From positions 1 through 35,167 of the IMG/VR virus record IMGVR_UViG_3300046167_000498: a DNA stretch of 35,167 bases; one strand, given 5' to 3'. This stretch comes from a virus. The notes under the pieces are model-generated. The model did not search any database. It saw nothing but the letters and a program-made list of their open reading frames with translations, and was not told the DNA's origin. Made by a program: the position numbers and the translations under genes. Below are positions 13,189 through 25,345 of this stretch, one piece after another; within the stretch, counting starts at the first letter, position 1; every line of letters starts with the position of its first letter.

Positions 13189-13224
13189 AATGGAACCTCT
13201 TTTTCATTTGTTTAGCACAAATCG

Positions 13225-14454
13225 TTAATTAGTGAAAGTAAAGTCTACCTTAGCCACTGGTCTGACTATCGGGAACTCATATGCTATTGGATATGTTGTT
13301 GCATCGTTCTGATGGTCTGTGCCACTGGTCTTATCGGGTTCGCCGTTCTTGTATGCTTGCTGCTCTAAGCACTCAGCTGTTGTCGGGCAAGCACTATCAT
13401 TTATCTTAACAAACCCTTGGTCAAACGCTCTGTTAGCTGCCATCACCCTGTCACGCACTCTGGGATTGCTTGGCTTAGCACGTATAACAAACCCTGCTTG
13501 CTGCAGTAAGCTTATATCACTAACGCTTGCGTTGTTAGTGCTGCGTCCTCTGCCTGATGCGTCTGGATACATATATATCTTATGGTCATTGTACTTTGAT
13601 TTAATGATATCAATCATATCTGGCGTGTCATACATATCAACCAGCTCATCAACAGCGTGCCATGTCTTGCCCCTCAGCACGTAAATGGTGGCTGCTTGCT
13701 TAGTTACGTTAAAGTCACAACCAATAAACAATGGCTCTCTATCAGTAACAACCTCATGCGACCTACATGCAGCTCTGTCATAGCTGTTGTAAACTGTCCC
13801 TGAGTTAAGATTAACAAACTGTCCTTCTAGGTATGCTGCAAGCAGCTGTGGTGAATAAGTCTCACGTAATCTATCTATGTAATCAGCTGGCAGGTTCTTT
13901 GCATTGCTCGACGTTGGTGCAGTGATTAGCTCATAGCTTGGACTAGGGTTCTTTTTCCAGCGTTCGTATACAAAGCCAAAGCCCTCTGGTGTTGTTCCAA
14001 CTGCAACTGTATTGATGCCTGTTGGCAATTTCTGTCGGTTACGTGCTATAATCTGCTCCCAACATCGCTGAGCCTTTAATTTTGGCAAAGTGTCTAACTC
14101 ATCTACATAGGAATGGCTACACTCGTATCCCACTATGCGCTCTGGTCTATCTAATGTCCTAAATATAATTCTCTTACCTAATACTTCAATGAAGTTACCT
14201 TGTGCATTTAACCTGTAAGGTATATTGCAGCTGCTAAGCAATTCACGCCAGCGTGGGTAGCAAATATCCCTAATTAATTGGTATGTTGGCATGTAGAAAG
14301 CTTGGTCTAATCCATCAGTGATAAGCATACGCAAGCACCTAAGCATAAGGCCATGTGTTTTACCTGCACCAAAGCCAGCGACCATACAAACGAAAGGACT
14401 ATTGCTTTCTATAAATGCTTTCTGTGGTTCTGATGCTGACGTTTCTAATATCAT
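13225..14454 (-). CDS. terL: terminase large subunit
   Basis: The 409-residue packaging motor shows a Walker A GFGAGKT at 27-33, Walker B ending in D118-E119 (SYVDEL), the coupling motif GTTPEG at 153-158, and an RNase H-like nuclease with candidate metal ligands D247 (GCDF), D298 (PDAS) and D384 (HQNDA). It therefore has both ATPase and DNA-cleaving activity. The start overlaps the small subunit stop as ATGA. The length is in the normal range. A headful mode would fit the circular permutation suggested by the window ends, but the sequence does not prove the packaging type. Confidence 0.95.
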   Translation of the reverse strand: MILETSASEPQKAFIESNSPFVCMVAGFGAGKTHGLMLRCLRMLITDGLDQAFYMPTYQLIRDICYPRWRELLSSCNIPYRLNAQGNFIEVLGKRIIFRTLDRPERIVGYECSHSYVDELDTLPKLKAQRCWEQIIARNRQKLPTGINTVAVGTTPEGFGFVYERWKKNPSPSYELITAPTSSNAKNLPADYIDRLRETYSPQLLAAYLEGQFVNLNSGTVYNSYDRAACRSHEVVTDREPLFIGCDFNVTKQAATIYVLRGKTWHAVDELVDMYDTPDMIDIIKSKYNDHKIYMYPDASGRGRSTNNASVSDISLLQQAGFVIRAKPSNPRVRDRVMAANRAFDQGFVKINDSACPTTAECLEQQAYKNGEPDKTSGTDHQNDATTYPIAYEFPIVRPVAKVDFTFTN

Positions 14455-14846
14455 TCACTTAAGTCTGTCTCATTGTCCTGACTGACAACCCTAAATCCTG
14501 TAAGCTTAACCTCTGCTTGTACTTCTTGTGCGCCATCTGTTTGACCTAACCAGTTACGACCTAACCACTTAAGCAATACTGGATTGCCTTCCATCGCTAC
14601 CTTATACTGCTTTCTACGCAAGTTCACTAAACCCTCAGCCCGATTAAGCCTAAAATACTCCGTAAATCCATAGCCTAATTCACGCTTTAATCCGTTATTC
14701 AATGTATCATAATCCATACCTAGTATTGACGCACATTCCTCGCCAGTACTTTGCAAACCACATAAGTTAGACAACACTTTGTAATCTATAACCTTATAAG
14801 GTCGACCACTACGCTTTGGTTGGTTTTTCGGTTTTGGCTTTGTCAT
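14451..14846 (-). CDS. terS: terminase small subunit
   Basis: The 131-residue protein lies directly before the large terminase with an ATGA overlap. It has a basic N-terminus (KPKPKNQPKRSGRPYK), an HTH-like helical part around residues 20-55 (EECASILGMDYDTLNNGLKR) and a segment VNLRRKQYKVAMEGNPVLLKWLG RNWLGQ, which is typical of small terminases (GN..MLIWLGKQWLGQ). It would recognise the packaging start and recruit TerL. The ATG at 14846 is preferred to the TTG one codon earlier. Its first 38 nt overlap the DUF5664 gene. Confidence 0.88.
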   Translation of the reverse strand: MTKPKPKNQPKRSGRPYKVIDYKVLSNLCGLQSTGEECASILGMDYDTLNNGLKRELGYGFTEYFRLNRAEGLVNLRRKQYKVAMEGNPVLLKWLGRNWLGQTDGAQEVQAEVKLTGFRVVSQDNETDLSE

Positions 14847-15129
14847 CAATTATTGCTCTCTCATTTATAAACATTAGCGACGTAATAGCTGCGCTTATAT
14901 GGCTATAACCTGTCTCATCGTCGTATCTTTCACCTCTGGCATGTGCATTGAGATGTCTTAACGCAGCTGCCATATAGCGTTTCTTATATCCTTCAACATA
15001 TAGCCAGTTGTTATCGTCATATTTTCTCGCTCCAATACGTAATACATGACTTATCTCAAGCATTGTATGTGGTGGCAATAGGTCAAATCTAGCTTTGTCA
15101 CTATCATATTTTCTGCCTATAGATTTCAT
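14809..15129 (-). CDS. DUF5664 / dATP-dGTP diphosphohydrolase-like (MazG-like) protein
   Basis: The 106 residues match the DUF5664 pattern: KYDSDKARFDLLPP near the N-terminus, IGARKYDDNNW, then RYMAAALRHLNAHARGERYD DETGYSH with conserved Arg, His and Asp residues, and SHISAAITSLMF. This family has been named dATP/dGTP diphosphohydrolase N-terminal domain and is related to the MazG-type dNTP pyrophosphohydrolases. It would trim the dNTP pool during infection. No PurZ or DatZ partner is found here, so a base-modification pathway is not indicated. Substrate is inference. It sits between a GcrA-like gene and terS. Confidence 0.75.
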   Translation of the reverse strand: MKSIGRKYDSDKARFDLLPPHTMLEISHVLRIGARKYDDNNWLYVEGYKKRYMAAALRHLNAHARGERYDDETGYSHISAAITSLMFINERAIIDDKAKTEKPTKA

Positions 15130-15138
15130 GTTAATCTT

Positions 15139-15720
15139 TCATTCTTTTATAATAACTACGGTAAACTTGCAATCATCTATCATATTAAGTGCCTGAGTGT
15201 AAGTACCCCGCCAGCTATATGACTTTTGTTGTGTAATCGTCTTGCCTGACATATGCAAGTAACCAGCCATATGTTTTAGCCTGTAACCTTCACCAACCTT
15301 AGCAAACTTACCATCTGTAACTCTATAGTCATCTCTCTTAACTCTACGTTGTTTGTCTCTGGGCTTGAACCTGTCTGGTGCATATTCTCTCATCTTAGCA
15401 AATGTCTTTTCTGACATATTCAATGACCTATAGATATCTTTGATGTAGCACTGACCTTCCCATAATTTTACTGCTGCGTTGATTTGATTGATATCGGCAT
15501 AGCGTTTGTAGCGATTTCGCTGTATTGCCTTTTTGCGTGTTACAAGCTTTTTCTTGGTGCGTCTGGGCAGTCCATTAGTTCTGTTTCTATGCGCGTGTAA
15601 TTGTAAGCTGGCATAAGTTACACCAAGTCTTTCTGCAATATGTATTGTCTGTAAATCTGTAGCCCACAACTCAACTGCAAGCTCGTGCTTACTAGCTGTC
15701 CATGTGCGCTTCTTAGGCAT
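15139..15720 (-). CDS. GcrA-like multi-HTH DNA-binding protein
   Basis: The 193-residue basic protein has repeated helix-turn-helix units: one at about 9-45 (ELAVELWATDLQTIHIAERL then GVTYASLQLHAHRNR), similar in pattern to the GcrA N-terminus. A second lies at about 78-112 (INAAVKLWEGQCYIKDIYRS then LNMSEKTFAKMR), and a third, looser one near 150-165. GcrA is a methylation-sensitive transcription factor of Alphaproteobacteria. A phage homologue could act on late transcription or host cell-cycle promoters. A structural or terminase-like role is also possible from the position three genes before terL. The start overlaps the previous stop as TAATG. Confidence 0.65.
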   Translation of the reverse strand: MPKKRTWTASKHELAVELWATDLQTIHIAERLGVTYASLQLHAHRNRTNGLPRRTKKKLVTRKKAIQRNRYKRYADINQINAAVKLWEGQCYIKDIYRSLNMSEKTFAKMREYAPDRFKPRDKQRRVKRDDYRVTDGKFAKVGEGYRLKHMAGYLHMSGKTITQQKSYSWRGTYTQALNMIDDCKFTVVIIKE

Positions 15721-15929
15721 TACTTCTTATTAGGATATAGCAGCTCATCTAACAATGTATCTTCATTAGTTATATATGCACTTATGGTTACATATGTTCT
15801 ATCGCCAGATGTAGTTGCAGCAGCTACCGAAAAACAACCAGACAAATAACTGCCATCGTTTAACATAACCACTGCATCGCCTTTTGATATTTCTACGCAA
15901 TCAATGTATCTGCGTACCTCTTTAGTCAT
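15720..15929 (-). CDS. hypothetical protein, 69 aa
   Basis: The frame starts at ATG 15929 (MTKEVRRYIDCVEISKGDAV) rather than the TTG one codon earlier, and overlaps the end of the HTH gene by 8 nt and the next gene by one base. The product looks like a small beta-type protein: VEISKGDAVVMLNDGSYLSG then CFSVAAATTSGDRTYVTISA. No family is recognised. Location between two DNA-binding proteins suggests it belongs to the same regulatory cluster. Confidence 0.7.
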   Translation of the reverse strand: MTKEVRRYIDCVEISKGDAVVMLNDGSYLSGCFSVAAATTSGDRTYVTISAYITNEDTLLDELLYPNKK

Positions 15930-16161
15930 CAAGTGTGTCTTTACTCTTAGGTTTTGCCTTAGTCTTAGACTTTGGCTTGCTTACCTTTAGCTGTCCGTCC
16001 TCAAGCCAGTTTAGTATGTTACAGTAAACTGTTGGGATAGGCGTGTAAGCTCCTTGGCAGTATCTTATTATTGTACTTCTGTTGACGCCACACAACCTTG
16101 CAAATTGTGCAAAGTTATAACCTACGTCATTCATTTTAGCTTTAAATTCTACTGGCTCCAT
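15922..16161 (-). CDS. Cro/CI-type HTH transcriptional regulator
   Basis: The ATG at 16161 is chosen because GGAG lies 8 nt upstream; a longer frame to 16212 has no ribosome site. The 79-residue product starts MEPVEFKAKMNDVGYNFAQF and continues ARLCGVNRSTIIRYCQG, a clear helix-turn-helix (FAQFARLCGVNRSTIIRYC). A basic, Pro/Lys/Ser-rich tail follows (KPKSKTKAKPKSK). It likely binds DNA near early or late promoters of the phage. It could be a repressor or an activator; the sequence does not say which. It lies upstream of the GcrA-like gene in the same operon. Confidence 0.75.
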   Translation of the reverse strand: MEPVEFKAKMNDVGYNFAQFARLCGVNRSTIIRYCQGAYTPIPTVYCNILNWLEDGQLKVSKPKSKTKAKPKSKDTLDD

Positions 16162-16242
16162 AGTGTCGCTCCTCATATTGTGTAATAAAGCATTACGGAT
16201 ACTATTAACCATAATGCCTTAAACCTGTGCTTGTAAAGTTCT

Positions 16243-16452
16243 TTATGCATGTGTGTTATACCTGTCCCAAAACTCGTCAATCCATTGCTCTAATGTCAAT
16301 TCATTTAATCTGTTAACCATAACTGATTTCGTCTGTGTCAACATACAAAGTGCATTGGTGTTGTGCCAATAGAAATAACCTTCACCACGACACAACTCCC
16401 AATTATTAGCTAATGTTGCTATTTTGTTATTTATCTTTTTTAACGTCAACAT
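16243..16452 (-). CDS. hypothetical protein, 69 aa
   Basis: The product begins MLTLKKINNKIATLANNWEL and contains GEGYFYWHNTNALCMLTQTK, a pattern seen in small unknown phage proteins. The second half is an amphipathic helix with LNELTLEQWIDEFWDRYN. Its start overlaps the stop of the previous gene (TAATG) with GGGGAG upstream, so it is coupled. No membrane segment, no recognised domain. Confidence 0.7.
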   Translation of the reverse strand: MLTLKKINNKIATLANNWELCRGEGYFYWHNTNALCMLTQTKSVMVNRLNELTLEQWIDEFWDRYNTHA

Positions 16453-16748
16453 TATACAAACTCCCCAATCTTTTTATCATAGCTAAGTGCTATATGTATA
16501 AGGTCGTCCATACGTTCTGGCAACTCTTGTGCAATCTGCCATGCGCTAGGTCTACGTAATTTTGTGTCATGTAGTTTACCTGCGGCCATGCTTGTTATTG
16601 CAAATGCATCTGTTAGCGGGTCATCACCACACACTAATGCTTCTTGTGCTTGCTCCAGTGCGCTAGTAAAGTCTAATGCATCACACTCTAGGAACAGTTC
16701 ATATGCTTTAATTATTAGCTTTTGCCATACTCGTTTTTGCTGTCTCAT
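16452..16748 (-). CDS. hypothetical helical protein, 98 aa
   Basis: The 98-residue product is probably mostly helical (KLIIKAYELFLECDALDFTS onward). It has an AGKL...RRPSAWQIAQEL segment and a KKIGEFV end. A good AAGGG ribosome site overlaps the stop of the gene before it. I recognise no family. It belongs to the run of small early-region genes that begins at 17895. Confidence 0.7.
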   Translation of the reverse strand: MRQQKRVWQKLIIKAYELFLECDALDFTSALEQAQEALVCGDDPLTDAFAITSMAAGKLHDTKLRRPSAWQIAQELPERMDDLIHIALSYDKKIGEFV

Positions 16749-16749
16749 C

Positions 16750-17076
16750 TTATTTACCCTTACCTTCTAATACATTTATTATTCGCGCACGATAGTCATC
16801 AGTCAATGCCCACCCATCTGCATGTAGATAACAACCTAAATCTTTAGCAGGCATAAAAGACGTATTTTGCTCAATTTTGCCATCACTTTTTCTATGAGCT
16901 ATGCAATACCAACCTTTATTATTTCGGTGTATAAAACTAGTACGTGGCTTTGCATTTCTCTCAAACTCTTTAATTGTTTCTTGGTTGCCAGCTAGCCTAA
17001 CTAAAACAGGAACGCGGGTGTAATCTTGTAGAATTAGTAATGCTGCTTTAAGTTTTTTATAAGTTATACGTGTCAT
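16750..17076 (-). CDS. hypothetical protein, 108 aa, behind leader motif
   Basis: The start ATG is preceded by AAAGGAAATAAA and by the GGCAATTAAGCC leader found at four other genes. The 108-residue product starts MTRITYKKLKAALLILQDYT. It is basic at the N-terminus and has a beta-like middle (TSFIHRNNKGWYCIAHRKSD) and an aromatic segment GCYLHADGWALTDDYRARI. No known domain. The shared leader suggests it is controlled together with the other leader-bearing small genes. Confidence 0.75.
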   Translation of the reverse strand: MTRITYKKLKAALLILQDYTRVPVLVRLAGNQETIKEFERNAKPRTSFIHRNNKGWYCIAHRKSDGKIEQNTSFMPAKDLGCYLHADGWALTDDYRARIINVLEGKGK

Positions 17077-17108
17077 TTTATTTCCTTTCGTGGTGGCTTA
17101 ATTGCCTT
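17077..17108 (-). promoter_or_regulatory. leader motif copy a
   Basis: Minus-strand AAGGCAATTAAGCCACC, three variable bases, then GAAAGGAAATAAA leads into the ATG at 17076. The dyad GGC...GCC is at 17095-17106 with the 6-base centre AATTAA. It lies directly after the stop of the previous gene, so there is no room for a separate promoter; it would act inside a polycistronic message or as an operator. Confidence 0.75.
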
Positions 17109-17472
17109 ATATTTTCACATTGTCTAGGCAACCTTTACAAAGTTCTTCTGTGTCCTCCATTGTACTTTGTAACGTTTGTAATATTAATATTGCATTTTCG
17201 ATATTACTGTGCGTTTGCCTAACTTTTTCTAAATCCATTGTAGATACGCCTCTTATACCCGCAATGTGTTCACCTATACTACCTTTAGGGGCATGAAAAT
17301 TATCGGTCATAGCCGCCGCAATACACGATATATCAAATAGCATATCTTTTGTAATATTTTCGCAAACTGTAGAAAGTCCGTCTAGCATTTTTGCACATGT
17401 TATCATTTGGCTTCGTGCTTGTGGTGCAAAATCTTCTAAGCGTTCCCACTCTGCTCTTATTAATTTAGTCAT
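17107..17472 (-). CDS. hypothetical protein, 121 aa, behind leader motif
   Basis: The ATG at 17472 has AAAGGAAATAAA in front and the shared leader upstream; the longer frame from a TTG at 17487 would run through the ribosome site. The product begins MTKLIRAEWERLEDFAPQAR and is mostly helical, with Cys residues at several points and the C-terminal pattern VRQTHSNIENAILILQTLQS. The same C-terminal helix pattern occurs in the next gene upstream (VNNTITNIDTAIMQLELLKK), so the two may be diverged duplicates. No known domain. Confidence 0.72.
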   Translation of the reverse strand: MTKLIRAEWERLEDFAPQARSQMITCAKMLDGLSTVCENITKDMLFDISCIAAAMTDNFHAPKGSIGEHIAGIRGVSTMDLEKVRQTHSNIENAILILQTLQSTMEDTEELCKGCLDNVKI

Positions 17473-17504
17473 TTTATTTCCTTTCAAGGTGGCTTAATTG
17501 CCTT
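17473..17504 (-). promoter_or_regulatory. leader motif copy b
   Basis: AAGGCAATTAAGCCACC, then TTGAAAGGAAATAAA and the ATG at 17472. The dyad is at 17491-17502. Apart from three bases it is identical to copy a over more than 30 positions, including the start codon and the following AC. Confidence 0.75.
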
Positions 17505-17505
17505 A

Positions 17506-17895
17506 TTATTTTCTGTTAGCGTTTTTAATAGCAGTCTTATGAACTTGCTCAGTAATAAGTATTGATTTTTTTAACAACTCTAACTGCATTATTGCTGTGT
17601 CAATATTGGTAATAGTATTATTAACATCTTCTTCAGACAATTGTGTAGTTGAGCTCTCAATATGTTTATCGCGCTTATCACTGTGCATCGGATGCCATAG
17701 CTTACCAGTATGACTATTACTCATTGTAAGCATATTTACCATGCCAATTCTCATGCAAATTACACTACCAAGTACACGCTTAACTGCAGCACTCGCTAAA
17801 TCTGCTATTTTCTCATTTGTTATATTATGCTCTACAATGTTTTGTAAATCATCATCGTCCAAACTACTTAACTTTGTTTCTTTTACTATAGTCAT
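17506..17895 (-). CDS. hypothetical protein, 129 aa, behind leader motif
   Basis: The 129-residue product starts MTIVKETKLSSLDDDDLQNI and is helical. It has a middle segment VICMRIGMVNMLTMSNSHTG and a C-terminal VNNTITNIDTAIMQLELLKK that resembles the downstream 121-residue protein. It is the first gene after an 84-bp gap that holds a promoter candidate and leader copy c. Function unknown; probably an early accessory protein. Confidence 0.72.
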   Translation of the reverse strand: MTIVKETKLSSLDDDDLQNIVEHNITNEKIADLASAAVKRVLGSVICMRIGMVNMLTMSNSHTGKLWHPMHSDKRDKHIESSTTQLSEEDVNNTITNIDTAIMQLELLKKSILITEQVHKTAIKNANRK

Positions 17896-17927
17896 TTTAT
17901 TTCCTTTGTAGGTGGCTTAATTGCCTC
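17896..17927 (-). promoter_or_regulatory. leader motif copy c
   Basis: GAGGCAATTAAGCCACC, then TACAAAGGAAATAAA before the ATG at 17895. The dyad is at 17914-17925. Unlike copies a and b this one follows a non-coding gap with promoter-like sequence, 11 nt after a CTAG as in copy d. Confidence 0.75.
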
Positions 17928-17936
17928 TGATATATC

Positions 17937-17965
17937 CTAGATAATGATTATAACTAATATTGCAA
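17937..17965 (-). promoter_or_regulatory. candidate promoter for the 17895 gene
   Basis: On the minus strand TTGCAA (17960-17965), a 17-nt spacer and ATCTAG (17937-17942) lie in the 84-bp gap between genes. A perfect TATAAT is also present at 17947-17952 but without a good -35 at the normal distance. The same spacing of CTAG to the leader motif (11 nt) is seen upstream of 22672. Weak consensus match, so tentative. Confidence 0.4.
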
Positions 17966-17979
17966 GTACTTTTTGTCCA

Positions 17980-18195
17980 TTAACTTAATTTAATTAATCC
18001 GCGTAGTGCTTTGCTGTTAGTCTCATAGTCTTTTAACCTACGTATCTCAGCTGTTTTTATTTTGTTAAATGTAGTACCTGCTGCGCTGCAAGTACCTGTG
18101 ACACTCGCTGGTGTTGTGTTCAATGCAAATGCCACTTGGCTAATTGTCCACCACGGGCATGCCTTAACCTCGTCATATATTTTATTAATCAACAT
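17980..18195 (-). CDS. small HTH-like protein, 71 aa
   Basis: The product starts MLINKIYDEVKACPWWTISQ and continues VAFALNTTPASVTGTCSAAG, which has the look of a helix-turn-helix (ISQVAFALNTTPASVTGTCSA). A basic end follows (KIKTAEIRRLKDYE). It overlaps the upstream replication-associated gene by 11 nt and is the last gene before an 84-bp gap. It could bind DNA, perhaps as a small regulator of the replication block. Family not recognised. Confidence 0.6.
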   Translation of the reverse strand: MLINKIYDEVKACPWWTISQVAFALNTTPASVTGTCSAAGTTFNKIKTAEIRRLKDYETNSKALRGLIKLS

Positions 18196-18673
18196 TAGTT
18201 ATCTCTAATACAGTTTTTGCTTTACGATACATCACAACCCGTCTGACGTATTCTGATTTGACACTTTCCATCAAGACGCCAGCTGAGCGTGGTGCATAGT
18301 TGTTGTTGCTGCGCCTCCAGTTGTTGCAAGCTAGTTCAATTAAGTCTGCTGGGTATTCTCTTAAGTCATCTATCCACTCTTTATCAATTTCGTCTTGGAC
18401 TGTCGGGTTTGTATCGCGCTGATAGTACCTACTTTCTAATATTTCTATCTTTCCTAATATATATGTTGCTTCACTTGGCTGTAACAAGCTCAAGTAATGC
18501 TCCCTGACTTCTATGATGTTTTTCTTATGCTGTTTAGATGTCTGCCTGTCTTGCTCTGCACTAAATCGTCTAGGCCAACCCACCAGTGGACTTAAGCTGC
18601 TCAAGAAGCGCTCCCCTTCGATTACGTCTTTGGTCGCTAATTTCTTTGAGTGTATTGGTATTATATTTGACAT
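18185..18673 (-). CDS. putative replication accessory protein, 162 aa
   Basis: The gene overlaps the DUF1376 gene by 104 nt, but its ATG has a strong GGAG site and there is no later good start, so the overlap seems real. The product contains LSPLVGWPRRFSAEQDRQTS, a helical middle, and IDDLREYPADLIELACNNWR followed by APRSAGVLMESV. This last pattern (Y/FP.D....AC..W.....FAP....L) is one I associate with unknown proteins paired with phage replication initiators. A helicase-loader or initiator-partner role is possible but unproven. Confidence 0.68.
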   Translation of the reverse strand: MSNIIPIHSKKLATKDVIEGERFLSSLSPLVGWPRRFSAEQDRQTSKQHKKNIIEVREHYLSLLQPSEATYILGKIEILESRYYQRDTNPTVQDEIDKEWIDDLREYPADLIELACNNWRRSNNNYAPRSAGVLMESVKSEYVRRVVMYRKAKTVLEITNVD

Positions 18674-19325
18674 TGGTATTATCTCCTTTTTCTAGTTTCC
18701 ATTGTAGATTGTTTTGCAGCCAAGCTCTGTACTGCTTATTAAAGTCATTCGATAAGGTACGCTTCTCTGTGTGATAAGCTATAAATTTCTCAAGCTGTAA
18801 CTCTAACTCCTCTGCAGTCATATGCTTACTGACAAGTGCAGCTGTCTTAGTTTTCTTGTTAAGTTCATTTGGTCTAAAATCTATATTAATATAACTACTG
18901 TTATTGTGATTGTGATTGTGATTGTGATTGGTAGAGCCATGCTTTGCTTTTGCTTTAGCATTGCTAGACTTAGTTTTGTTTGTTTTCAGTGCCTTAGCCA
19001 GTCCACCACGTTTACCAGCTTCTACACGTGATTTATGCTTAGCAGTACCTTCGACAAACTCTTCATGTAATCTTTTGTTATAATATCTATCTTTTTTTAT
19101 GTGAAAGAACTCGTCTAACACTGATGTTAATATTTGTATGTCTGCGTCTGACCTGCACAAGCATTTACGTGCTATCCATGTAATGTCTGCTGGTAAGCTG
19201 CAAGTTGCTGTAGTCCATGTAAGCCTGAGCAGTCTGTGATAATAACCCTCCTCCTCAGCTGTCAAATGCGCGACTGCATATCCAAAATCTTTTACGTAGT
19301 AACTGAACCAAGGTAAGCTACTCAT
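18570..19325 (-). CDS. DUF1376 replication protein (initiator/helicase-loader type)
   Basis: The N-terminus MSSLPWFSYYVKDFGYAVAH then LTAEEEGYYHRLLRLTW matches DUF1376, a family found in phage replication modules in place of lambda O or P. The 251-residue protein has a winged-helix-like N-terminal part (1-90), a basic region (KHKSRVEAGKRGGLAKAL) and a low-complexity NHNHNHNHNN stretch around residues 132-141. The C-terminal part is about 100 residues. The start overlaps the RusA stop (ATGA) with GGAG upstream. With no polymerase or helicase gene in the genome, it probably recruits host replication proteins. Confidence 0.8.
   Translation of the reverse strand: MSSLPWFSYYVKDFGYAVAHLTAEEEGYYHRLLRLTWTTATCSLPADITWIARKCLCRSDADIQILTSVLDEFFHIKKDRYYNKRLHEEFVEGTAKHKSRVEAGKRGGLAKALKTNKTKSSNAKAKAKHGSTNHNHNHNHNNSSYINIDFRPNELNKKTKTAALVSKHMTAEELELQLEKFIAYHTEKRTLSNDFNKQYRAWLQNNLQWKLEKGDNTNVKYNTNTLKEISDQRRNRRGALLEQLKSTGGLA
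18906..18929. repeat. four perfect GTGATT hexamers inside the replication gene
   Basis: Four head-to-tail copies of GTGATT (AATCAC on the coding strand) encode the Asn-His repeat in the DUF1376 protein. Direct repeats in the middle of a replication initiator gene recall the origin iterons in lambda O. It may mark the origin or may be simple sequence prone to copy-number change. Confidence 0.6.
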
Positions 19326-19684
19326 TTTCTATCTCCTATTTTATATTTTGTAATCGTTAGCTCTGCGTAGCCACCCTTTGATTGTGGCAACCAGCTCATC
19401 TTTAGTTCACGTATTAAGCAATCGTCAACTATGATTGTGCCTGTCATTACGTCCTGTAAGCCCTTAGCATGATTATCTAAGTCTCTCCGACGCTTGCAGG
19501 GAACGCTGAGAGCGATTTGCAAACTAATGTCACAACTTAGCGGCAATCCTGTATATTGCTCTGTAATCGCTTCCAGTGCCTTTGCACGCCATAATCTGTA
19601 TCTTTTAGACTTAATCCGTCTGCGTCCATGATTAGAATACATCGAATTGACTGATATAGGAAATGGCAGCACCAATTTAAGCAT
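19322..19684 (-). CDS. rusA: RusA-like Holliday junction resolvase
   Basis: The 120-residue protein starts MLKLVLPFPISVNSMYSNHG and carries the RusA signature KRRRDLDNHAKGLQDVMTG with acidic residues D68 and D70, plus DD at 87-88 in IVDDCL. These are the expected catalytic acidic positions. RusA enzymes cut four-way junctions formed in recombination and replication. The gene overlaps NinB upstream by 8 nt and DUF1376 downstream by 4 nt, in the order found in lambdoid nin-like regions. Confidence 0.9.
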   Translation of the reverse strand: MLKLVLPFPISVNSMYSNHGRRRIKSKRYRLWRAKALEAITEQYTGLPLSCDISLQIALSVPCKRRRDLDNHAKGLQDVMTGTIIVDDCLIRELKMSWLPQSKGGYAELTITKYKIGDRK

Positions 19685-20102
19685 CAGTTATGTCCTTTAT
19701 TTCTATACCCCACTTTGCAGCCTGACTAATTATAAGCTCAGTAAGCAGCGTAAATTGCTCAACATTAAATTTAGACGTTGCTGGGTTAAGAGGCAGCATA
19801 CCACCATGCAAGTCTGGTATCCAATTTGTCTCTTTTACAATTGAGCTAGCGAAAACTACTTTCCATGCTTCAGCTGAATATCTAGCACCAACCTTGTGCA
19901 AACCCCATTCATTACCATTCCACCTAATCTGATTTGATATTATATTAAGTAATGCCCACATCATTTTATTTTGCTGTGTGCTTCTTGTGTCTGACTTGTT
20001 GCGCTTGAAAGTTATATATGTATTGGCTGGACTGCGATTGATAAGGTCACGTGCTTTGTTGCGCGTAACCTCATCAGTTAATTGTAGTGTGTACTCACCC
20101 AT
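19677..20102 (-). CDS. ninB: NinB/Orf-like recombination protein
   Basis: The 141-residue protein resembles lambda NinB (Orf): an N-terminal strand region, then RSTQQNKMMWALLNIISNQI and RWNGNEWGLHKVGARYSAEA WK...F followed by LHGGMLPLNPATSKFNVEQF. The Q-N-(K)-MW-LL and W..K..F patterns are typical. NinB works with SSB and annealing proteins as a recombination mediator in the RecF pathway. It lies between SSB and RusA, consistent with that role. Confidence 0.85.
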   Translation of the reverse strand: MGEYTLQLTDEVTRNKARDLINRSPANTYITFKRNKSDTRSTQQNKMMWALLNIISNQIRWNGNEWGLHKVGARYSAEAWKVVFASSIVKETNWIPDLHGGMLPLNPATSKFNVEQFTLLTELIISQAAKWGIEIKDITDA

Positions 20103-20104
20103 AT

Positions 20105-20521
20105 TTAAAATGGTATATCATCGTCTAATGGATAATCACTTGTTACTGGTTTGTCTGGCAGTGTTGCTAGTCCAGTTCCGCTGTTAGTTGCACCAAGCAG
20201 CTTAATCTCACCATTATACTTTTCCAATACAACCTCAGTCACATACTTGTCACCACTGTCACTCGTGTACTTACGTGTGCTTAGTTTGCCTTCAATATAT
20301 ATCTTGCTGCCTTGTCCTGCATAATTCTCAATGAGCTTAATCAAGTTCTCATTGAAGATACTAATTTTGTGCCAGCTGGTCTTTTCTTGCTTTTCACCAG
20401 TCTTACTTTTCCAGCGTTCATTAGTTGCTAATGAAAAGCTCATATGTCTGTTATTATTACTAAAGGTGCGTGCGACTGGTTCACTACCTATGTTCCCTAT
20501 TAAAATTACTTTATTAACCAT
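20105..20521 (-). CDS. ssb: single-stranded DNA-binding protein
   Basis: The 138-residue protein has the OB-fold SSB pattern: MVNKVILIGNIGSEPVARTF, SFSLATNERWKSKTG, WHKISIFNENLIKL, AGQGSKIYIEGKLSTRKYT. It has a short linker and the acidic tip DDDIPF that binds partner proteins. It protects ssDNA in replication and recombination and would work with the ERF and exonuclease neighbours. The start overlaps the exonuclease stop (TAATG) with AAGGAG upstream. The linker is short compared with host SSBs, as usual in phages. Confidence 0.95.
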   Translation of the reverse strand: MVNKVILIGNIGSEPVARTFSNNNRHMSFSLATNERWKSKTGEKQEKTSWHKISIFNENLIKLIENYAGQGSKIYIEGKLSTRKYTSDSGDKYVTEVVLEKYNGEIKLLGATNSGTGLATLPDKPVTSDYPLDDDIPF

Positions 20522-21156
20522 TATGTGTCTCCTTGTTGTTGGTTTAATTTAATTATGGTTTCGTCAATTTCTGTATGTGCTTTATGTATCTCACATAGCA
20601 ATCTATCTTGATATTCACTGTCTGCCATTACTCTGACTATTGCCAGCTGTAAGTGGTCTGGAAATCTATCGTCAAAACTGCAAACGTCTGTCCAAGGTTT
20701 GCCAGTGACTAACATTTGATGCTGCACTTGGTTGTAATATTCTACGGCATGTTTTTGCTCGCTGAGATACGTTATGTGCTTGTGACTGGTTGGGCATTTT
20801 ATCTCAACTAAACCATCTTCCATAACGCCGTCTGGTGATGCACCAATATAGTCGAACTCATCATGCAAGCAAAAGCCAACCTCTACTGGGCTAGTTCCAG
20901 TATGAAATGCATATGCATCTCTAGCAGTTGCCTCCAGCTCTATACCTCGCAGCATATGACTAGATGTAAATCCTTGCTCAATTGTACCTGTCAACCTCTG
21001 TACGACCATCTCACCTATAAGTGTAGCACGTCCTGCTGATGGTTTGCCTGATTTAAGATTAGCCATCAGTGGTTTTGTTCTACTCGCTGTGAATACACCA
21101 GCTCTGCACGATTGCCATTCTGGTGTACCCTGTATGATATTATCTATAACTCTCAT
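20521..21156 (-). CDS. YqaJ-type viral exonuclease (lambda Exo family)
   Basis: The 211-residue protein has the YqaJ/lambda Exo motifs in order: an N-terminal GTPEWQSCRAGVFTASR, GIELEATARD at 71-80, GASPDGVM with D109, LVEIKCP with E118 and K120, and YYNQVQHQM with Q143. These are the metal-binding and catalytic positions. It would chew one strand from a DNA end and pass the ssDNA to the ERF annealing protein encoded just upstream (ATGA overlap). The pair forms a Red-like recombination system. Confidence 0.92.
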   Translation of the reverse strand: MRVIDNIIQGTPEWQSCRAGVFTASRTKPLMANLKSGKPSAGRATLIGEMVVQRLTGTIEQGFTSSHMLRGIELEATARDAYAFHTGTSPVEVGFCLHDEFDYIGASPDGVMEDGLVEIKCPTSHKHITYLSEQKHAVEYYNQVQHQMLVTGKPWTDVCSFDDRFPDHLQLAIVRVMADSEYQDRLLCEIHKAHTEIDETIIKLNQQQGDT

Positions 21157-21749
21157 GTGTCTGCCTCAGTTTCAGCTGTCTGTGCTTTATCTAAGGACTG
21201 CTTACGAATGTTCCATGCTGAGCGTAGTTTGTTTTTAGATGCATTATCCATTTGCGTCGTCTTAATTACATTGCCAGCCAGACTAAGCTGCTCCAGCGTC
21301 GCGCACGCTTCTATGCTTTGCAGCAATGGCTCTGTGTCAAATTCTGGTTTTGCATCATGCGACTTGTTACCATCGTCATCTTCAACTGGCATATTAAGTA
21401 GTGCTGATATTGCATTACGTCGGCAATAAGTAAATGTACTCATTAGCACGTGGATGTCTTTGTTTTTCAGTGGTGCTTCTGTATCTGTTTCAATCCACTC
21501 ACCACTTTCTCCATGCGTAAGTCGTGTGACTACTATGATTGTTTGGTTTTTAGTTATGCGTCCAAGCTCTTGCTGTATACTTAAATCATTGTCATGTAGT
21601 GCTTTATTGGACGCATTAATAACTGAACTTAGTGTTGCATATGTTGATTTGTAATGTGGGTTTTTGCCATCTTTCTTAGCTCCCGTTATTGCATTACTAG
21701 CAGCTGTGACAGCTGCTGCTATGTTTTTATATGTTTCTGAATGTCGCAT
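21153..21749 (-). CDS. erf: ERF-family ssDNA annealing protein
   Basis: The 198-residue protein has the ERF pattern: AAAVTAASNAITGAKKDGKN then PHYKSTYATLSSVINASNKA, GLSIQQ-type L-S-I-Q-Q, GEWIETDTEAPLKNKDIHV and STFTYCRRNAISALLNM with an acidic DDDGN after it. ERF proteins anneal complementary ssDNA and help phage genomes circularise by homologous recombination, which would suit terminally redundant DNA. The start has an AGGAG site. It is the first gene of the recombination block. Confidence 0.9.
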   Translation of the reverse strand: MRHSETYKNIAAAVTAASNAITGAKKDGKNPHYKSTYATLSSVINASNKALHDNDLSIQQELGRITKNQTIIVVTRLTHGESGEWIETDTEAPLKNKDIHVLMSTFTYCRRNAISALLNMPVEDDDGNKSHDAKPEFDTEPLLQSIEACATLEQLSLAGNVIKTTQMDNASKNKLRSAWNIRKQSLDKAQTAETEADT

Positions 21750-21781
21750 ATTTTAATCTCCTATTTTTTTTATGCTATCGT

Positions 21782-22036
21782 TTATGTTACTGCAATTGCG
21801 AATAATGTAAAGCCGAACGTAAATCCAGCCCAACCAACAAAGCTCACAAAGTCACGCAGCAATGTTTTACCAGCTGCGATTGCTTCTGCTTTCTCAGCTG
21901 CATCTGCTAAGTCCCAATCTAGTAGACTAATGTTAAGTCTAATAGGCTCGTAGTAACAGTCGTAACAACTAACAACACCATTGGTAATGTTAGCGTCACG
22001 ATTATCAATTATAATTTTACACTTATTACATTTCAT
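21782..22036 (-). CDS. zinc-ribbon protein with one C-terminal membrane segment, 84 aa
   Basis: The 84-residue product starts MKCNKCKIIIDNRDANITNG and has a second CxxC in SCYDCYY, giving a four-Cys zinc ribbon in the first 30 residues. The C-terminal FVGWAGFTFGFTLFAIAVT is a hydrophobic segment long enough to span a membrane. A helical Ala/Glu-rich link joins them (LADAAEKAEAIAAGKTLL). Strong GGGAG ribosome site. Such a tail-anchored early protein could act at the cell membrane, for example in superinfection exclusion, but this is a guess. Confidence 0.7.
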   Translation of the reverse strand: MKCNKCKIIIDNRDANITNGVVSCYDCYYEPIRLNISLLDWDLADAAEKAEAIAAGKTLLRDFVSFVGWAGFTFGFTLFAIAVT

Positions 22037-22050
22037 TTTTACATCTCCCT

Positions 22051-22329
22051 TTAATTATATTGCTTTTTTACTTTTATATATTGCCATGAAATTACGTTAT
22101 CAAAACTAATTGTATCATCATGCGAATTATATCTACTAACTTCACAACCCCAAAATTTATTACCATATTGATTAGTATATATATAATAGAAGGCAATGTA
22201 TTCTTGACCTTCATATTCAAATTGAAATTCTGCATCAGTGCATTTAATATTTTGCTCTAATTTGTGCATTAACATTTTAATAGTTATATCTTTAAGTTTA
22301 GATTTATTTATTTTTGTTTGTTTAATCAT
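22051..22329 (-). CDS. hypothetical protein, 92 aa
   Basis: The ATG at 22329 lies one base after the stop of the upstream gene and is chosen over an upstream in-frame start at 22368 that would overlap that gene by 38 nt. The product begins MIKQTKINKSKLKDITIKML and has a beta-like, aromatic part (FQFEYEGQEYIAFYYIYTNQ YGNKFWG). No domain recognised. Codon use is AT-rich like its neighbours. Confidence 0.65.
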   Translation of the reverse strand: MIKQTKINKSKLKDITIKMLMHKLEQNIKCTDAEFQFEYEGQEYIAFYYIYTNQYGNKFWGCEVSRYNSHDDTISFDNVISWQYIKVKKQYN

Positions 22330-22330
22330 C

Positions 22331-22672
22331 TTATTGACCCCACTTCTTAATATTAAAACTACTATCAATTACTTTAAAACGTTCTACCCAAAAATCATCT
22401 GTATCGAGTAAAAATAGAGAAAAGCCTTCTTCGTCATACCACTTAGCCTCAATTACATATTCACGCCAAGCCTCGTTGTGGCTTAGGTCTAAACCTTTAA
22501 TAATGCTAGCAACATTGTTAAAATCATGTGCAGTCTCATCGTCATGCGCATAATGTACGTATGTGTCACCAAACTTGTAGCGCCATGCTTCTGGGCACTC
22601 GCCCTCGCCGTTCCAAGTCGGCCAAGCTTTATTTTCCATTGCTTGTGTTTGTATTACTAATATTTTATACAT
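22331..22672 (-). CDS. hypothetical acidic protein, 113 aa, first leftward gene
   Basis: This is the first minus-strand gene after the divergent intergenic region, with leader copy d and a promoter candidate upstream, so it is probably one of the first genes expressed. The 113-residue product starts MYKILVIQTQAMENKAWPTW and is rich in Asp, Glu and Trp (AHDDETAHDFNN, WYDEEGFSLFLLDTDDFW). Net charge is clearly negative. Small acidic first-expressed phage proteins are often host-interacting or counter-defence factors; no family match supports that here. Confidence 0.72.
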   Translation of the reverse strand: MYKILVIQTQAMENKAWPTWNGEGECPEAWRYKFGDTYVHYAHDDETAHDFNNVASIIKGLDLSHNEAWREYVIEAKWYDEEGFSLFLLDTDDFWVERFKVIDSSFNIKKWGQ

Positions 22673-22706
22673 TTTAATTCCTTAAATTAGGTCGCTTAAT
22701 TGCGTC
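22673..22706 (-). promoter_or_regulatory. leader motif copy d (compensatory variant)
   Basis: Minus-strand CGCAATTAAGCG at 22693-22704 replaces GGC...GCC with CGC...GCG, keeping the three base pairs of the dyad. ACC follows, then AAGGAATTAAA and the ATG at 22672. The 9 bases ATTACATAG just upstream (22706-22714) recur in front of copy e on the other strand. Confidence 0.7.
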
Positions 22707-22715
22707 TATGTAATT

Positions 22716-22744
22716 CTAGTATTGGAACTTTTGTACGACGTCAA
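22716..22744 (-). promoter_or_regulatory. candidate leftward early promoter
   Basis: TTGACG (22739-22744) and TACTAG (22716-22721) are 17 nt apart on the minus strand, in the 182-bp region between divergent genes. A transcript from here would begin a few bases before leader copy d. The -35 is good and the -10 is weak. Confidence 0.5.
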
Positions 22745-22780
22745 CAGTTAATATGCATATAAAACAATTTAATTTAAGTG

Positions 22781-22809
22781 TTGCGTTTTAATCTCACATC
22801 ATTTAACGG
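22781..22809 (+). promoter_or_regulatory. possible rightward promoter
   Basis: TTGCGT (22781-22786), a 17-nt spacer and TAACGG (22804-22809) precede leader copy e. The -10 matches poorly. A promoter must exist in this divergent gap for the plus-strand operon, but its exact position is uncertain. Confidence 0.25.
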
Positions 22810-22821
22810 ACAAATATTACA

Positions 22822-22854
22822 TAGGCAATCAAGCCACATAAATGGAGATGTAAT
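22822..22854 (+). promoter_or_regulatory. leader motif copy e on the plus strand
   Basis: GGCAATCAAGCC at 22824-22835, then ACATAAATGGAGATGTAAT and the ATG at 22855. It matches the minus-strand leaders except for one base in the centre, keeps the dyad, and keeps the distance to the start codon (19 nt). ATTACATAG overlaps its left side as in copy d. Confidence 0.65.
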
Positions 22855-23172
22855 ATGACAAATAAAATAATATATGAGACTAGCAAAGAGGGTAATGGTG
22901 TTTTTAATGTTAAGATATTTGACGATGGAACAGTTGACACGACTGACGATGACAATATGAACTTGAATGTATTCGACAATGTTAATGATGCTATCAACTG
23001 GCATTACAAACAATATCGCCTCATAAAAAACAGAGAGGCAAATTCACACGAAAATATCGTTTATCATTTAATGCCTTTCCATAATTATGACATGCCACTA
23101 ATTGTGGATAGCCAATGGAATATCATAAGTGCAGTTTGGGATAATACTGAACCAAAAGGAGTAGAAACATGA
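22855..23172 (+). CDS. hypothetical protein, 105 aa, first gene of rightward operon
   Basis: This plus-strand gene opens the only rightward operon and carries leader copy e with GGAG upstream. The 105-residue product begins MTNKIIYETSKEGNGVFNVK and is acidic, with a Thr/Asp run (DGTVDTTDDDNMNLNVFDNV) and an aromatic middle (INWHYKQYRLIKNREAN). No known domain. Its stop overlaps the start of the Cro-like regulator (ATGA), so both are made together. Confidence 0.72.
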   Translation: MTNKIIYETSKEGNGVFNVKIFDDGTVDTTDDDNMNLNVFDNVNDAINWHYKQYRLIKNREANSHENIVYHLMPFHNYDMPLIVDSQWNIISAVWDNTEPKGVET

Positions 23173-23381
23173 CTAAATATACAGTTGAAGGCATTATAGA
23201 AAACTGTGGTGGTGCATCTGTCATAGCATCACATTGCACTAACCTAAAAGCTGACAGCATTCGTAAATGGATTACACGTGGAATACCTGAGAAACACTGG
23301 TCAACCATAATTAAATTACATGGCTGGCTGCTTAATGCTAATCAGCTGCATAAGCTAAATGAAAGTGTACGTGATGATTGA
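23169..23381 (+). CDS. Cro/YdaS-like HTH regulator, 70 aa
   Basis: The 70-residue product has the pattern IIENCGGASVIASHC, then ADSIRKWITRGIPEKHWSTI IKLHGW. This is the signature of small Cro-like phage regulators (C-G-G-x-x-x-I-A ... V/I-x-x-W-x-x-R-G-I-P-x-x-x-W). It would bind operators in the divergent region and govern leftward against rightward transcription. AGGAG precedes the start. There is no integrase in the genome, so it does not by itself show lysogeny. No CI-like partner with a peptidase domain is present. Confidence 0.82.
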   Translation: MTKYTVEGIIENCGGASVIASHCTNLKADSIRKWITRGIPEKHWSTIIKLHGWLLNANQLHKLNESVRDD

Positions 23382-23553
23382 GCAAGTAAAAGATAAGTCT
23401 GGCGTTAGCACATATTATACTACGCACCCATACTACAACAAATTTAAGTATCGTAACGCTGTTTTAAGACGTGACAAACGCGACCAACATCATTGGCTTG
23501 CAAAGGTTAAGCAAGATATAATCAACTCTCTGCGAGGCTCTGGTGCGCTTTAG
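23359..23553 (+). CDS. hypothetical basic protein, 64 aa
   Basis: The frame overlaps the end of the Cro-like gene by 23 nt and the HNH gene by 11 nt. The product, MKVYVMIEQVKDKSGVSTYY onward, is basic with many His, Lys, Arg and Tyr (HPYYNKFKYRNAVLRRDKRD QHHW). A second Met at position 6 (23374) is an alternative start with less overlap; neither has a strong ribosome site. No known family. It may be translated by coupling from its neighbour. Confidence 0.55.
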   Translation: MKVYVMIEQVKDKSGVSTYYTTHPYYNKFKYRNAVLRRDKRDQHHWLAKVKQDIINSLRGSGAL

Positions 23554-23905
23554 TGACGATATAACATATCAGCGTTACAAGCCATTAACCAAGTATGAGT
23601 TTGCTGAACTATTCTTGCAGCAGCAAGGTTTATGCTCGACGTGCTCAACCAAGCTAGAATTAAAGCCTTACAAGATACATACTGAGCATCTCAGCCAACG
23701 TGCTTTGTCTGATAGCAACGCACATAACTTATCCAACATTGCACTAACATGTGTGCCTTGCAGCAAAGTTAAGAACGCAGCTGATGCAAAGGCAAGGGCT
23801 AAAGTAAGACGGCTGTTAGGTGTAAACAAAGATAAACCAAAGCAAAAGATAGCTAGTCGGAAATTTAATCAAGTAAGCAAACCAAACATAAGGGAAATAG
23901 ACTAA
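23543..23905 (+). CDS. HNH endonuclease
   Basis: A GTG at 23543 starts a 120-residue protein with an HNH core: CSTCSTKLEL, then IHTEHLSQRALSDSNAHNLS and NIALTCVPCSKVKN. The two CxxC pairs bind a structural zinc, and H-x-E-H with the following Asn residues form the nuclease site. A basic tail follows (KARAKVRRLLGVNKDKPKQK). HNH enzymes beside packaging genes help terminase, but here it is in the rightward operon far from terL, so it may be a homing-type or host-DNA nuclease. The start codon is uncertain. Confidence 0.8.
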   Translation: MRFSDDITYQRYKPLTKYEFAELFLQQQGLCSTCSTKLELKPYKIHTEHLSQRALSDSNAHNLSNIALTCVPCSKVKNAADAKARAKVRRLLGVNKDKPKQKIASRKFNQVSKPNIREID

Positions 23906-24207
23906 TGGCTTTTATACAAAAATGGAATTGGCACGATAACATTGACGAATACATGAACACATACTTTCTTAACCAAGAGCTTGTCCATGAAGATGATGAC
24001 TGCTTAAAGTATGACTTTCATTTATTTAGACGTGATGTCTACACTAACAAGTTCAATTTTATTGAGACACTAAACTGGTCGTCATACACGACTTATGGTG
24101 CTGATAAGGCAACTGAGTTTTATGCTATTTGTGATAAATTAGAGCTACAATATAAACAAGCTGCTAACGTGGCCTCACGGTTGTTCGGTGGACTTCGCCA
24201 AGTTTAG
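23905..24207 (+). CDS. hypothetical protein, 100 aa, last gene of rightward operon
   Basis: The start overlaps the HNH stop (TAATG). The product begins MAFIQKWNWHDNIDEYMNTY and is acidic and aromatic-rich. It ends with a helical LQYKQAANVASRLFGGLRQV. Its last 44 nt overlap the end of the metallophosphoesterase gene on the other strand, so the two operons meet tail to tail with no gap. No domain recognised. Confidence 0.68.
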   Translation: MAFIQKWNWHDNIDEYMNTYFLNQELVHEDDDCLKYDFHLFRRDVYTNKFNFIETLNWSSYTTYGADKATEFYAICDKLELQYKQAANVASRLFGGLRQV

Positions 24208-25345
24208 AATGATATGTAATTACTTTAGCACCTCTTGCTGATACCCAACCGCCTCTGGCGCTATATGCATCTCGTGTTGACAAAGAAGGATTTTGCTCCA
24301 CGATAGCGCCCATATCCTCCACCACACGTTCGTGGTGCATATGTCCAGTGTGAATATAAGCTTGTGTTGCTTTTCCCCATAGCTTTCTAAAACGTGGCTC
24401 ACTCGCAAACAGCTTTGGCAGTTGTGCCATTTTCTTTTTATGCCCATGATGGAAGCCTAACAATATCTCACCATGTAAATACGCATAATATGGAAATTCG
24501 TTGTCAATGACTTCTACTCTATCGTCTTGACTAAATACATATTTTATATGTTTTCTGAGCCAGATTGAACCTGACATATCGTGATTGCCTTCGGCCTGTA
24601 CTACTACAACCTTACCAAATTTCTTTAACATCATCTGAACAGCTTGTGTCATAATTTCTATTGTTAGTTCAACTAGCTTACTATAGCGCGTATCAGCGTC
24701 AAGAATATGTCCTGACATAGGCGTAACAGCCGTTATGCCATCGAAATGCAGGAAGTCACCAAGCTGGCAAAGAAAGCCTGTATGAGCCTTTGGCGCGGCT
24801 TCTATCATATCTGATATTGCATTAAGAAACACACGCTTGGATATATTTACATCCCAATCATCACCAGTTTCAGCCTCCCAAGCATACATTCCCAAATGGA
24901 AGTCGGTAATGGTAATTAATGATAATAAGTCTTTATCTGTGTGCTTCACTTTAGGGCTTGGCTTAAATGGCTTATAGTTTTTATGCGTTTCTTCAATAGC
25001 CAGCAACATAATCTCATGTTGTCGTTCTTTGTCACCAATCGTCTTAACCCATTGGCCTGTTTTTTGTCCGCTTGCATTATAATATGTGCTTACGCCTTTG
25101 ACTTGAAAACCATCTGGTGCTGTTGCTGTCATATCATGCTCTGGCGCATGACCTTTGCGTGCGGCTCTAGCTTTAACTGCACCTGAAATAGTATATATCG
25201 CCCTTATGGATACACCAAATTTAGCGGCTGTCTCGTCCACTGTATCATCAACAGCTCTTGCGGAAATTACTGATAATTCGCGCTCACTTATACAATATTC
25301 CTTAAGTTCTGCCCAATTAACTTTACTTGAATTTGTTTTTCCCAT
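24164..25345 (-). CDS. metallophosphoesterase with N-terminal HTH-like domain
   Basis: The ATG at 25345 has GAGG upstream and is preferred over a TTG at 25360. The 393-residue protein has an N-terminal HTH-like part (VDETAAKFGVSIRAIYTISG) and a linker STYYNASGQKTGQWVKT. A calcineurin-type phosphoesterase domain follows from about residue 140: DFH at 148-150, GD at 196-197, GNHD at 253-256, HHGH at 299-302 and GHMHH at 334-338. All five metal-binding motifs are present, so it should be active. It is the last gene of the long leftward unit, after lysis genes. Substrate unknown; nucleic acid or cyclic nucleotide is possible. Confidence 0.85.
   Translation of the reverse strand: MGKTNSSKVNWAELKEYCISERELSVISARAVDDTVDETAAKFGVSIRAIYTISGAVKARAARKGHAPEHDMTATAPDGFQVKGVSTYYNASGQKTGQWVKTIGDKERQHEIMLLAIEETHKNYKPFKPSPKVKHTDKDLLSLITITDFHLGMYAWEAETGDDWDVNISKRVFLNAISDMIEAAPKAHTGFLCQLGDFLHFDGITAVTPMSGHILDADTRYSKLVELTIEIMTQAVQMMLKKFGKVVVVQAEGNHDMSGSIWLRKHIKYVFSQDDRVEVIDNEFPYYAYLHGEILLGFHHGHKKKMAQLPKLFASEPRFRKLWGKATQAYIHTGHMHHERVVEDMGAIVEQNPSLSTRDAYSARGGWVSARGAKVITYHSKLGEVHRTTVRPR

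Follow-up and report, generated by a model that had tools for sequence, protein, structure and literature searches.

The ompA and T7 leaders carry stabilising hairpins at the 5' end of the mRNA, and we know of no such 5'-stabilising hairpin with a conserved hexaloop before many genes or with a role in gene exchange. The PeSLs of Arbiol (2010) and Comeau (2014) are reportedly promoter-terminator motifs at the junctions of shuffled accessory genes. Here we describe a short dyad, SGCAATYAAGCS, which stands ahead of five small genes in IMG/VR record IMGVR_UViG_3300046167_000498, a virus record of 35,167 bp (the whole of this stretch is called the window), and recurs in related viral records. We suggest that it is probably a 5'-leader RNA hairpin of accessory genes that doubles as a recombination joint in one phage group. 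The closest known kinds appear to be Start-Associated Sequences (SAS) and T4 PeSL cassettes (the latter named for T4-type phages in PMC4503421); the element resembles each in part, and the defining features that we tested fail for both.

SAS and extended SAS (ESAS) occur in mycobacteriophages of Cluster K and Microbacterium phages of Cluster EF, the SAS being a 13-bp asymmetric consensus, GGGATAGGAGCCC, that contains the Shine-Dalgarno and typically lies 3–7 bp from the start, with little support, in the authors' view, for the idea that the extended repeats pair into hairpins (PMC3203893, PMC7302621). Like SAS as portrayed there, the element is a short conserved repeat before starts of different families (26 protein clusters behind 59 leaders), it lies mostly in one orientation (all five window copies face starts) and ahead of non-structural genes, and the same gene family is found with or without it in different phages. 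Unlike the SAS of those accounts, the 12-mer NGCAATYAAGCN is located upstream of a separate Shine-Dalgarno instead of containing it, the distance to the start is 15–23 nt in 45 distinct leaders instead of 3–7 bp, and the outer pair covaries, which sets it apart from the extended repeats. With PeSLs, as these are said to be built, it would share the character of a small regulatory cassette at accessory-gene junctions, perhaps with a promoter in part of the copies. It differs in having a 3-bp hairpin beside the ribosome-binding site and downstream of the predicted transcription start; judged by sequence, this is no terminator, the stem being 3 bp with a predicted energy of -2.8 kcal/mol and no T-run being present in the leaders listed. 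The 17-bp dyad repeats of Cluster O mycobacteriophages, where recombination seems to have made insertions and deletions, are similar in their dyad symmetry and apparent recombination but are loosely tied to starts, show no meaningful orientation and lie within genes in about one third of cases (PMC4351075).

Exactly five exact matches to SGCAATYAAGCS occur in the window, compared with 0 in 100 dinucleotide shuffles, and all are oriented toward a start codon 18–20 nt downstream, with a Shine-Dalgarno in between. Allowing two mismatches gives 15 matches against a chance mean of 12.1, with no excess, and therefore only the five exact copies count. Three of them lie in a row on the minus strand: hairpin a (17095..17106, GGC-AATTAA-GCC, a predicted 3-bp hairpin), which abuts the stop codon of gene b and is followed by an 18-nt spacer (17077..17094) and the start of gene a at 17076 (16750..17076, 108 aa); hairpin b (17491..17502), which abuts stop codons of gene c and leads through an 18-nt spacer (17473..17490) to gene b at 17472 (17107..17472, 121 aa); and hairpin c (17914..17925), with an 18-nt spacer (17896..17913) before gene c at 17895 (17506..17895, 129 aa), both b and c being predicted to fold. 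Across the Shine-Dalgarno, spacer a forms a 2-bp CC/GG helix in the predicted fold, while spacers b and c form a CCU/AGG helix. The other two copies point away from each other across a 182-bp divergent intergenic region: hairpin d (minus strand, 22693..22704), with a compensatory CGC/GCG outer pair, lies 20 nt ahead of gene d at 22672 (22331..22672, 113 aa), relatives of which are found behind four different flanks, and hairpin e (plus strand, 22824..22835, GGC-AATCAA-GCC) lies 19 nt ahead of gene e at 22855 (22855..23172, 105 aa). None of the five genes has a Pfam or PHROGs family match. A sequence-only reading of the window had listed these five leaders on both strands, with their distances to the starts, the altered stem of copy d and the two copies (a and b) placed directly after a stop codon, and all of this is confirmed. 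Whole-gene duplication as the source of the near-identical copies a, b and c was dropped, their proteins belonging to three separate clusters (P11, P5 and P1). Two divergent regions in related records, L388:6566-6700 and L392:1173-1310, likewise carry two leaders, one per side, of which one has A-T as its outer pair.

Viral contigs were scanned for GGCAATYAAGCC plus AAGGAAA, which gave 89 stretches, and 20 records chosen by eye for a window-like leader, mostly GGCAATTAAGCC-ACC, were then each searched whole; we refer to these as kin (sequence was used from 18 of them, 14 whole and four in part, plus L032 and L057). The NGCAATYAAGCN-type pattern is present in 20/20 kin records, with 51 hits in total and at least two copies in 16 of the 20, all of which had been selected for having one; a backwards control pattern had 0 matches in the same 20 records searched whole. 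When any outer base was allowed and a Shine-Dalgarno and start were required, the 21 records (kin plus window) yielded 59 leaders that read NGC-AATYAA-GCN ahead of a ribosome-binding site and start, including 55 of the 56 SGC..GCS hits (51 in kin, five in the window). Two further sites without such a start were excluded, L057:2337 (complementary) and L391:16841 (G/A, non-complementary). One of the kin, G001, is a near-identical virus, with 8 differences from the window in 22,209 bp, and its spacer b matches spacer a and differs from the window's spacer b at two neighbouring positions (17486-17487).

The outer pair is complementary in 59/59 leaders (G-C 50, C-G 5, A-T 3, T-A 1), or, in the 45 distinct leaders, G-C in 40, C-G in two, A-T in two and T-A in one, and we conclude that pairing is conserved, not just sequence. 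The proposal made from the window alone, of a hairpin with a compensatory stem change, is thus supported by all four Watson-Crick outer pairs in kin, where motif and pairing are both conserved. The loop reads AATTAA in 41 and AATCAA in four of the distinct leaders. Among 279 distinct gene starts, 46 have an NGC-N6-GCN hairpin at the leader position, with an AATYAA loop in 41 and AATAAA in one, although roughly one site per record in this count depends on the selection, the records having been picked for holding one. The hairpin ends 3–9 nt ahead of the Shine-Dalgarno. Four of the five window leaders are predicted to form two hairpins in tandem, of which the second spans the Shine-Dalgarno, and such a second helix is found in 27 of the 45 distinct leaders (CCU/AGG 22, CUC/GAG 4, CCA/UGG 1, none in 18), compared with a mean of 19.7 in head-shuffled spacers (1 of 5000 as high); for the 34 distinct spacers the count is 18 against 12.0 (9 of 5000 as high). 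Rfam 15 covariance models gave 0 matches to window positions 16900-23000 at E values up to 5.

The 50 nt upstream of starts were clustered at 70% identity and the downstream proteins by blastp at E 1e-3. Pairs of sites sharing a flank were followed by unrelated genes in 67 of 96 cases at 56 leader genes, compared with 25 of 410 for 323 ordinary starts and 13 of 218 for a regional control (ordinary small genes no more than 3 kb from a leader gene), the 50-nt flank taking in about six motif bases in these comparisons; this is the kind of shuffling junction that PeSLs are said to mark. With flanks ending before the motif, the figure at leaders is 69 of 100. Of the 13 flank clusters with at least two sites, ten have more than one protein family downstream, and six gene families are found behind two or more flanks. 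Assembly chimeras were dropped as an explanation: flank U0 has three gene families and U1 and U3 have two each, every one of them in at least two records, the support for U3 with gene d coming from the window and from G001, its near-twin.

The switch of homology between flank and gene falls inside the leader. Along the 49 distinct pairs with the same flank and different genes, identity is 0.84–0.87 upstream and 0.99 in the motif, then 0.74, 0.60 and 0.79 along the spacer and 0.60, 0.44 and 0.30 within the coding sequence. The reverse is seen in 21 pairs with different flanks and the same gene (0.25–0.32 upstream, 0.87–0.92 in the gene), while pairs differing in both have 0.30–0.32 upstream and 0.29 in codons 11–30. 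An identical spacer is found in just 5 of the 49 same-flank pairs and 1 of the 21 same-gene pairs, and so crossovers seem to be spread over the leader. Together with the same-flank counts, this switch supports the earlier suggestion that the leader marks modular small genes.

The gene orders behind flank U3 suggest how such exchange may have proceeded. In the window they run d, MKCNKCK, ERF (a small gene at 22051-22368, between d and MKCNKCK, is absent from the gene list used for the comparison), whereas in kin they run MITIYQ, leader, d, MKCSKCK, ERF (L032), MITIYQ, leader, MTKQTKI, MKCSKCK, ERF (L057) or MITIYQ, leader, MKCSKCK, ERF (L382). In the last of these records the flank and leader of gene e directly precede the helix-turn-helix (HTH) gene in place of e. 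The leader is present for the MKCSKCK family in 3 of 11 places and for the HTH family in 1 of 14. Flank and gene thus appear to have been traded for one another across the leader, and genes behind it to have been lost or gained, with another gene taking the leader over. At L383:8850 a chimeric start is seen, where the protein opens with MTIVKET, as in the gene c family of the window, and goes on like the gene b family, as if the crossover fell inside the first codons.

A best sigma70-like site was sought in the 75 nt upstream of one representative of each of 18 flank clusters. The predicted +1 falls at -12..0 from the motif in 10 of the 18 (shuffled mean 4.7, 0 of 400 as high), and all eight clusters scoring 6 or more have it there (shuffled mean 1.6, 0 of 400). 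In the window this applies to copy d alone (flank U3), with a predicted +1 about 7 nt ahead of the hairpin and a site score of 6.9, which is not significant by itself, being equalled in 0.24 of shuffles. Where such a promoter is predicted, the hairpin would lie near the mRNA 5' end and ahead of the Shine-Dalgarno, as in the ompA and T7 leaders. Clusters with no promoter predicted in place are U4 and U12 (after a gene end), U6 and U11 (after a GGGGGC hairpin), U0, U5, U8 and U15, which include window copies a (U12), b (U4), c (U8) and e (U5). The GGGGGC-(GNAA or TCAA)-GCCCC(C) hairpin in question, lacking a T-run, lies 8 nt upstream of several leaders (L382:6400-6435; U6, U11).

We propose that an NGC-AAUYAA-GCN hairpin would form in the 5' leader, in many cases with another weak helix after it across the Shine-Dalgarno, and would lie within about 10 nt of the predicted mRNA 5' end where a promoter is predicted and elsewhere after a stop codon or the GGGGGC hairpin. 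The leader would then act as RNA, a standard 5'-end and ribosome-binding-site module that may shield the 5' end or insulate translation from upstream, possibly with a protein reading the loop. The shared leader of about 32 nt could at the same time offer microhomology for annealing recombination by the phage's own proteins (YqaJ, ERF, NinB, SSB, RusA), and such recombination would swap or delete genes while each new first gene keeps a working leader.

Several points weigh against this proposal. Same genes with different upstream DNA are equally common at leaders (30/59) and at ordinary starts (445/830), and since this converse figure does not differ, the same-flank statistic alone discriminates. 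Flank U16 is followed by leader remnants, GGCAATAAAGG, in five records (L383:6902, L384:1117, L389:5806, L393:3361, L399:9148); these remnants lack the hairpin's 3' half and may serve as the Shine-Dalgarno of the HTH gene. Flank U15 occurs once with no leader after it at all. As noted, eight of the 18 flank clusters have no predicted promoter at -12..0. The stem is just 3 bp and weak, with predicted energies for the bare 12-mer of -2.8 (G-C), -1.9 (C-G) and -1.1 kcal/mol (A-T outer pair). Window leaders fold little better than their own shuffles (z -0.85 to -1.93), of which 10, 15, 12, 20 and 37 of 200 were as good, and copy e with its flanks prefers another minimum-energy fold in which the hairpin is unformed. 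The search fixed both inner pairs and left the outer pair alone free to vary; other 3-bp stems around AATYAA at seed-selected loci gave no signal (9 paired vs 5.1 expected). Finally, just 2 of 15 non-kin records, under the pattern limited to G/C outer bases, are multi-copy.

Other readings have to be set beside it. Recombination might have spread the leader as a shared sequence with no function of its own, and the junction statistics alone are compatible with such passive hitch-hiking; it is made improbable by the compensatory outer pairs on unrelated flanks, the near-fixed distance to the start and the position at predicted mRNA 5' ends. The junctions at the leader and its hairpin form could recall an integron-like target of a site-specific recombinase, but the junctions are spread from the motif to the ATG, with few identical spacers, and 0 site-specific recombinases were found among the 30 window proteins searched in Pfam, structural genes lying outside that search; we regard this as very improbable. 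Near the terminase genes, a 193-aa protein (15139-15720, minus strand) matches the transposase-type Pfam family HTH_Tnp_1, just above the cut-off.

The sequence-only reading had also raised the possibility of an operator for a Cro-like protein. A short dyad of this kind might be bound by a repressor dimer, for example by the 70-aa HTH protein encoded in the divergent operon, and some copies do lie near predicted promoters. Yet 55 of 56 SGC..GCS hits face a start, although such a site could point in either direction, the centre of the dyad is non-palindromic, the outer pair can be any Watson-Crick pair as long as it stays complementary, and copies a and b, inside an operon, leave no room for a promoter. 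A DNA operator therefore finds no support and seems to us highly unlikely. Binding at the RNA level is also conceivable, with a phage or host protein recognising the AAUYAA loop and switching all leader genes together while the second helix hides the Shine-Dalgarno. The loop held in 41 of 46 hairpins although the outer pair varies, the second helix itself and the 15–23 nt spacing would all fit such a translational operator. We nevertheless consider it rather unlikely, as no candidate RNA-binding regulator was identified, the second helix is missing in 18 of 45 leaders and the loop variants AATAAA, AATGAA and AACGAA are also found. What is conserved is the leader sequence, its position and the complementarity of its outer pair, and homology switches at the leader; a leader hairpin that doubles as a joint for gene exchange is the reading that we retain.

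Outside the kin, the leader pattern is widespread in viral contigs: besides the 89 stretches, another scan gave at least 119 and the reverse-complement core 40. With one outer base left free, 127 of 214 nonredundant matches are complementary against 53.8 expected from the margins, among the matches listed (119 of 119, 120 of 120 and 93 of 119 listed stretches of three scans). The paired non-kin sites have stems longer than 3 bp in 35 of 57 cases, and some sites are coding; a coding filter did not discriminate (57/86 complementary vs 21.9 expected outside long open frames, 62/113 vs 31.4 inside). The 102 non-kin sites form 80 flank clusters, and 6 of the 12 with at least two sites carry two or more gene families. 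Non-start controls were spoiled and left unused (75/98 complementary vs 46.8; 24/30 vs 14.7, the latter rows being mostly reverse strands of seeds and, without L193-L232, giving 5/10 complementary, three of them near-identical). A single family spanning unrelated phages was rejected on account of the mostly single-copy records, the longer stems, the coding sites and the undiscriminating filter. We treat the wider pattern as what would be hairpins before ribosome-binding sites in general, and limit our claim to the window's group.

In cellular genomes at least 117 stretches match the pattern, most resembling unrelated single hits. Among the matches listed, the 12-mer stands ahead of a gene whose product was assigned by eye as a PstS-like phosphate-binding protein, in 13 Vibrio/Photobacterium loci (L235, L246, L249, L256, L260, L294, L310, L316, L327, L336, L341, L261, L297), and in 118 genomes of the L235 genus 14 match the pattern, 12 with the leader letters of the PstS-like gene; this leader is probably independent of the phage element. 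In cultured phages, megablast found no match for window positions 12000-24500 and there was none for protein d, and an 88-nt promoter-plus-leader query hit 37 records, none of them covering 80%, the best match (Yersinia phage phiR1-37) being without the hairpin; three phage records searched whole had no pattern match. A small protein beginning MAYISQ lies behind such leaders in both kin and non-kin phages (L109, L150, L180, L393) and has relatives in 15 cultured phage records, of which the two checked are promoter-like upstream by eye and lack such a hairpin. The exact 12-mer was not found in the literature searched, five other spellings gave nothing about phages by title among the matches listed, and phrase searches returned no description of this leader element, their relevant results being the SAS and Cluster O papers and articles that cite PeSLs.

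Between the two leader groups of the window sit five recombination genes, all on the minus strand and assigned by family searches: a RusA Holliday-junction endonuclease (19322..19684), a NinB/Orf recombination mediator (19677..20102; Pfam/PHROGs), a single-strand DNA binding protein (SSB, 20105..20521), a YqaJ exonuclease (20521..21156; Pfam/PHROGs), which is a candidate part of the recombination machinery, and an ERF single-strand annealing protein (21153..21749; Pfam/PHROGs). From their known roles, these proteins perhaps act at the leader. The 70-aa HTH-like protein is encoded on the plus strand (23169..23381) and has weak YdaS and phrog_8008 matches.

It is an open question how phages acquire and shed small genes while keeping expression intact, and the leader, at which homology switches in most comparisons of like flanks, offers a concrete, testable joint. 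As a hairpin with compensatory pairs it is a small RNA element whose roles in translation, mRNA stability or regulation are directly testable. More tentatively, the leader might be a standardised RNA 'socket', with a 5'-end hairpin, a conserved loop and a masked ribosome-binding site, at which accessory genes land and are exchanged through microhomology by the phage's annealing recombination. If so, every incoming gene would come under the same expression control, and the leader would be nature's counterpart to an insulated expression cassette.

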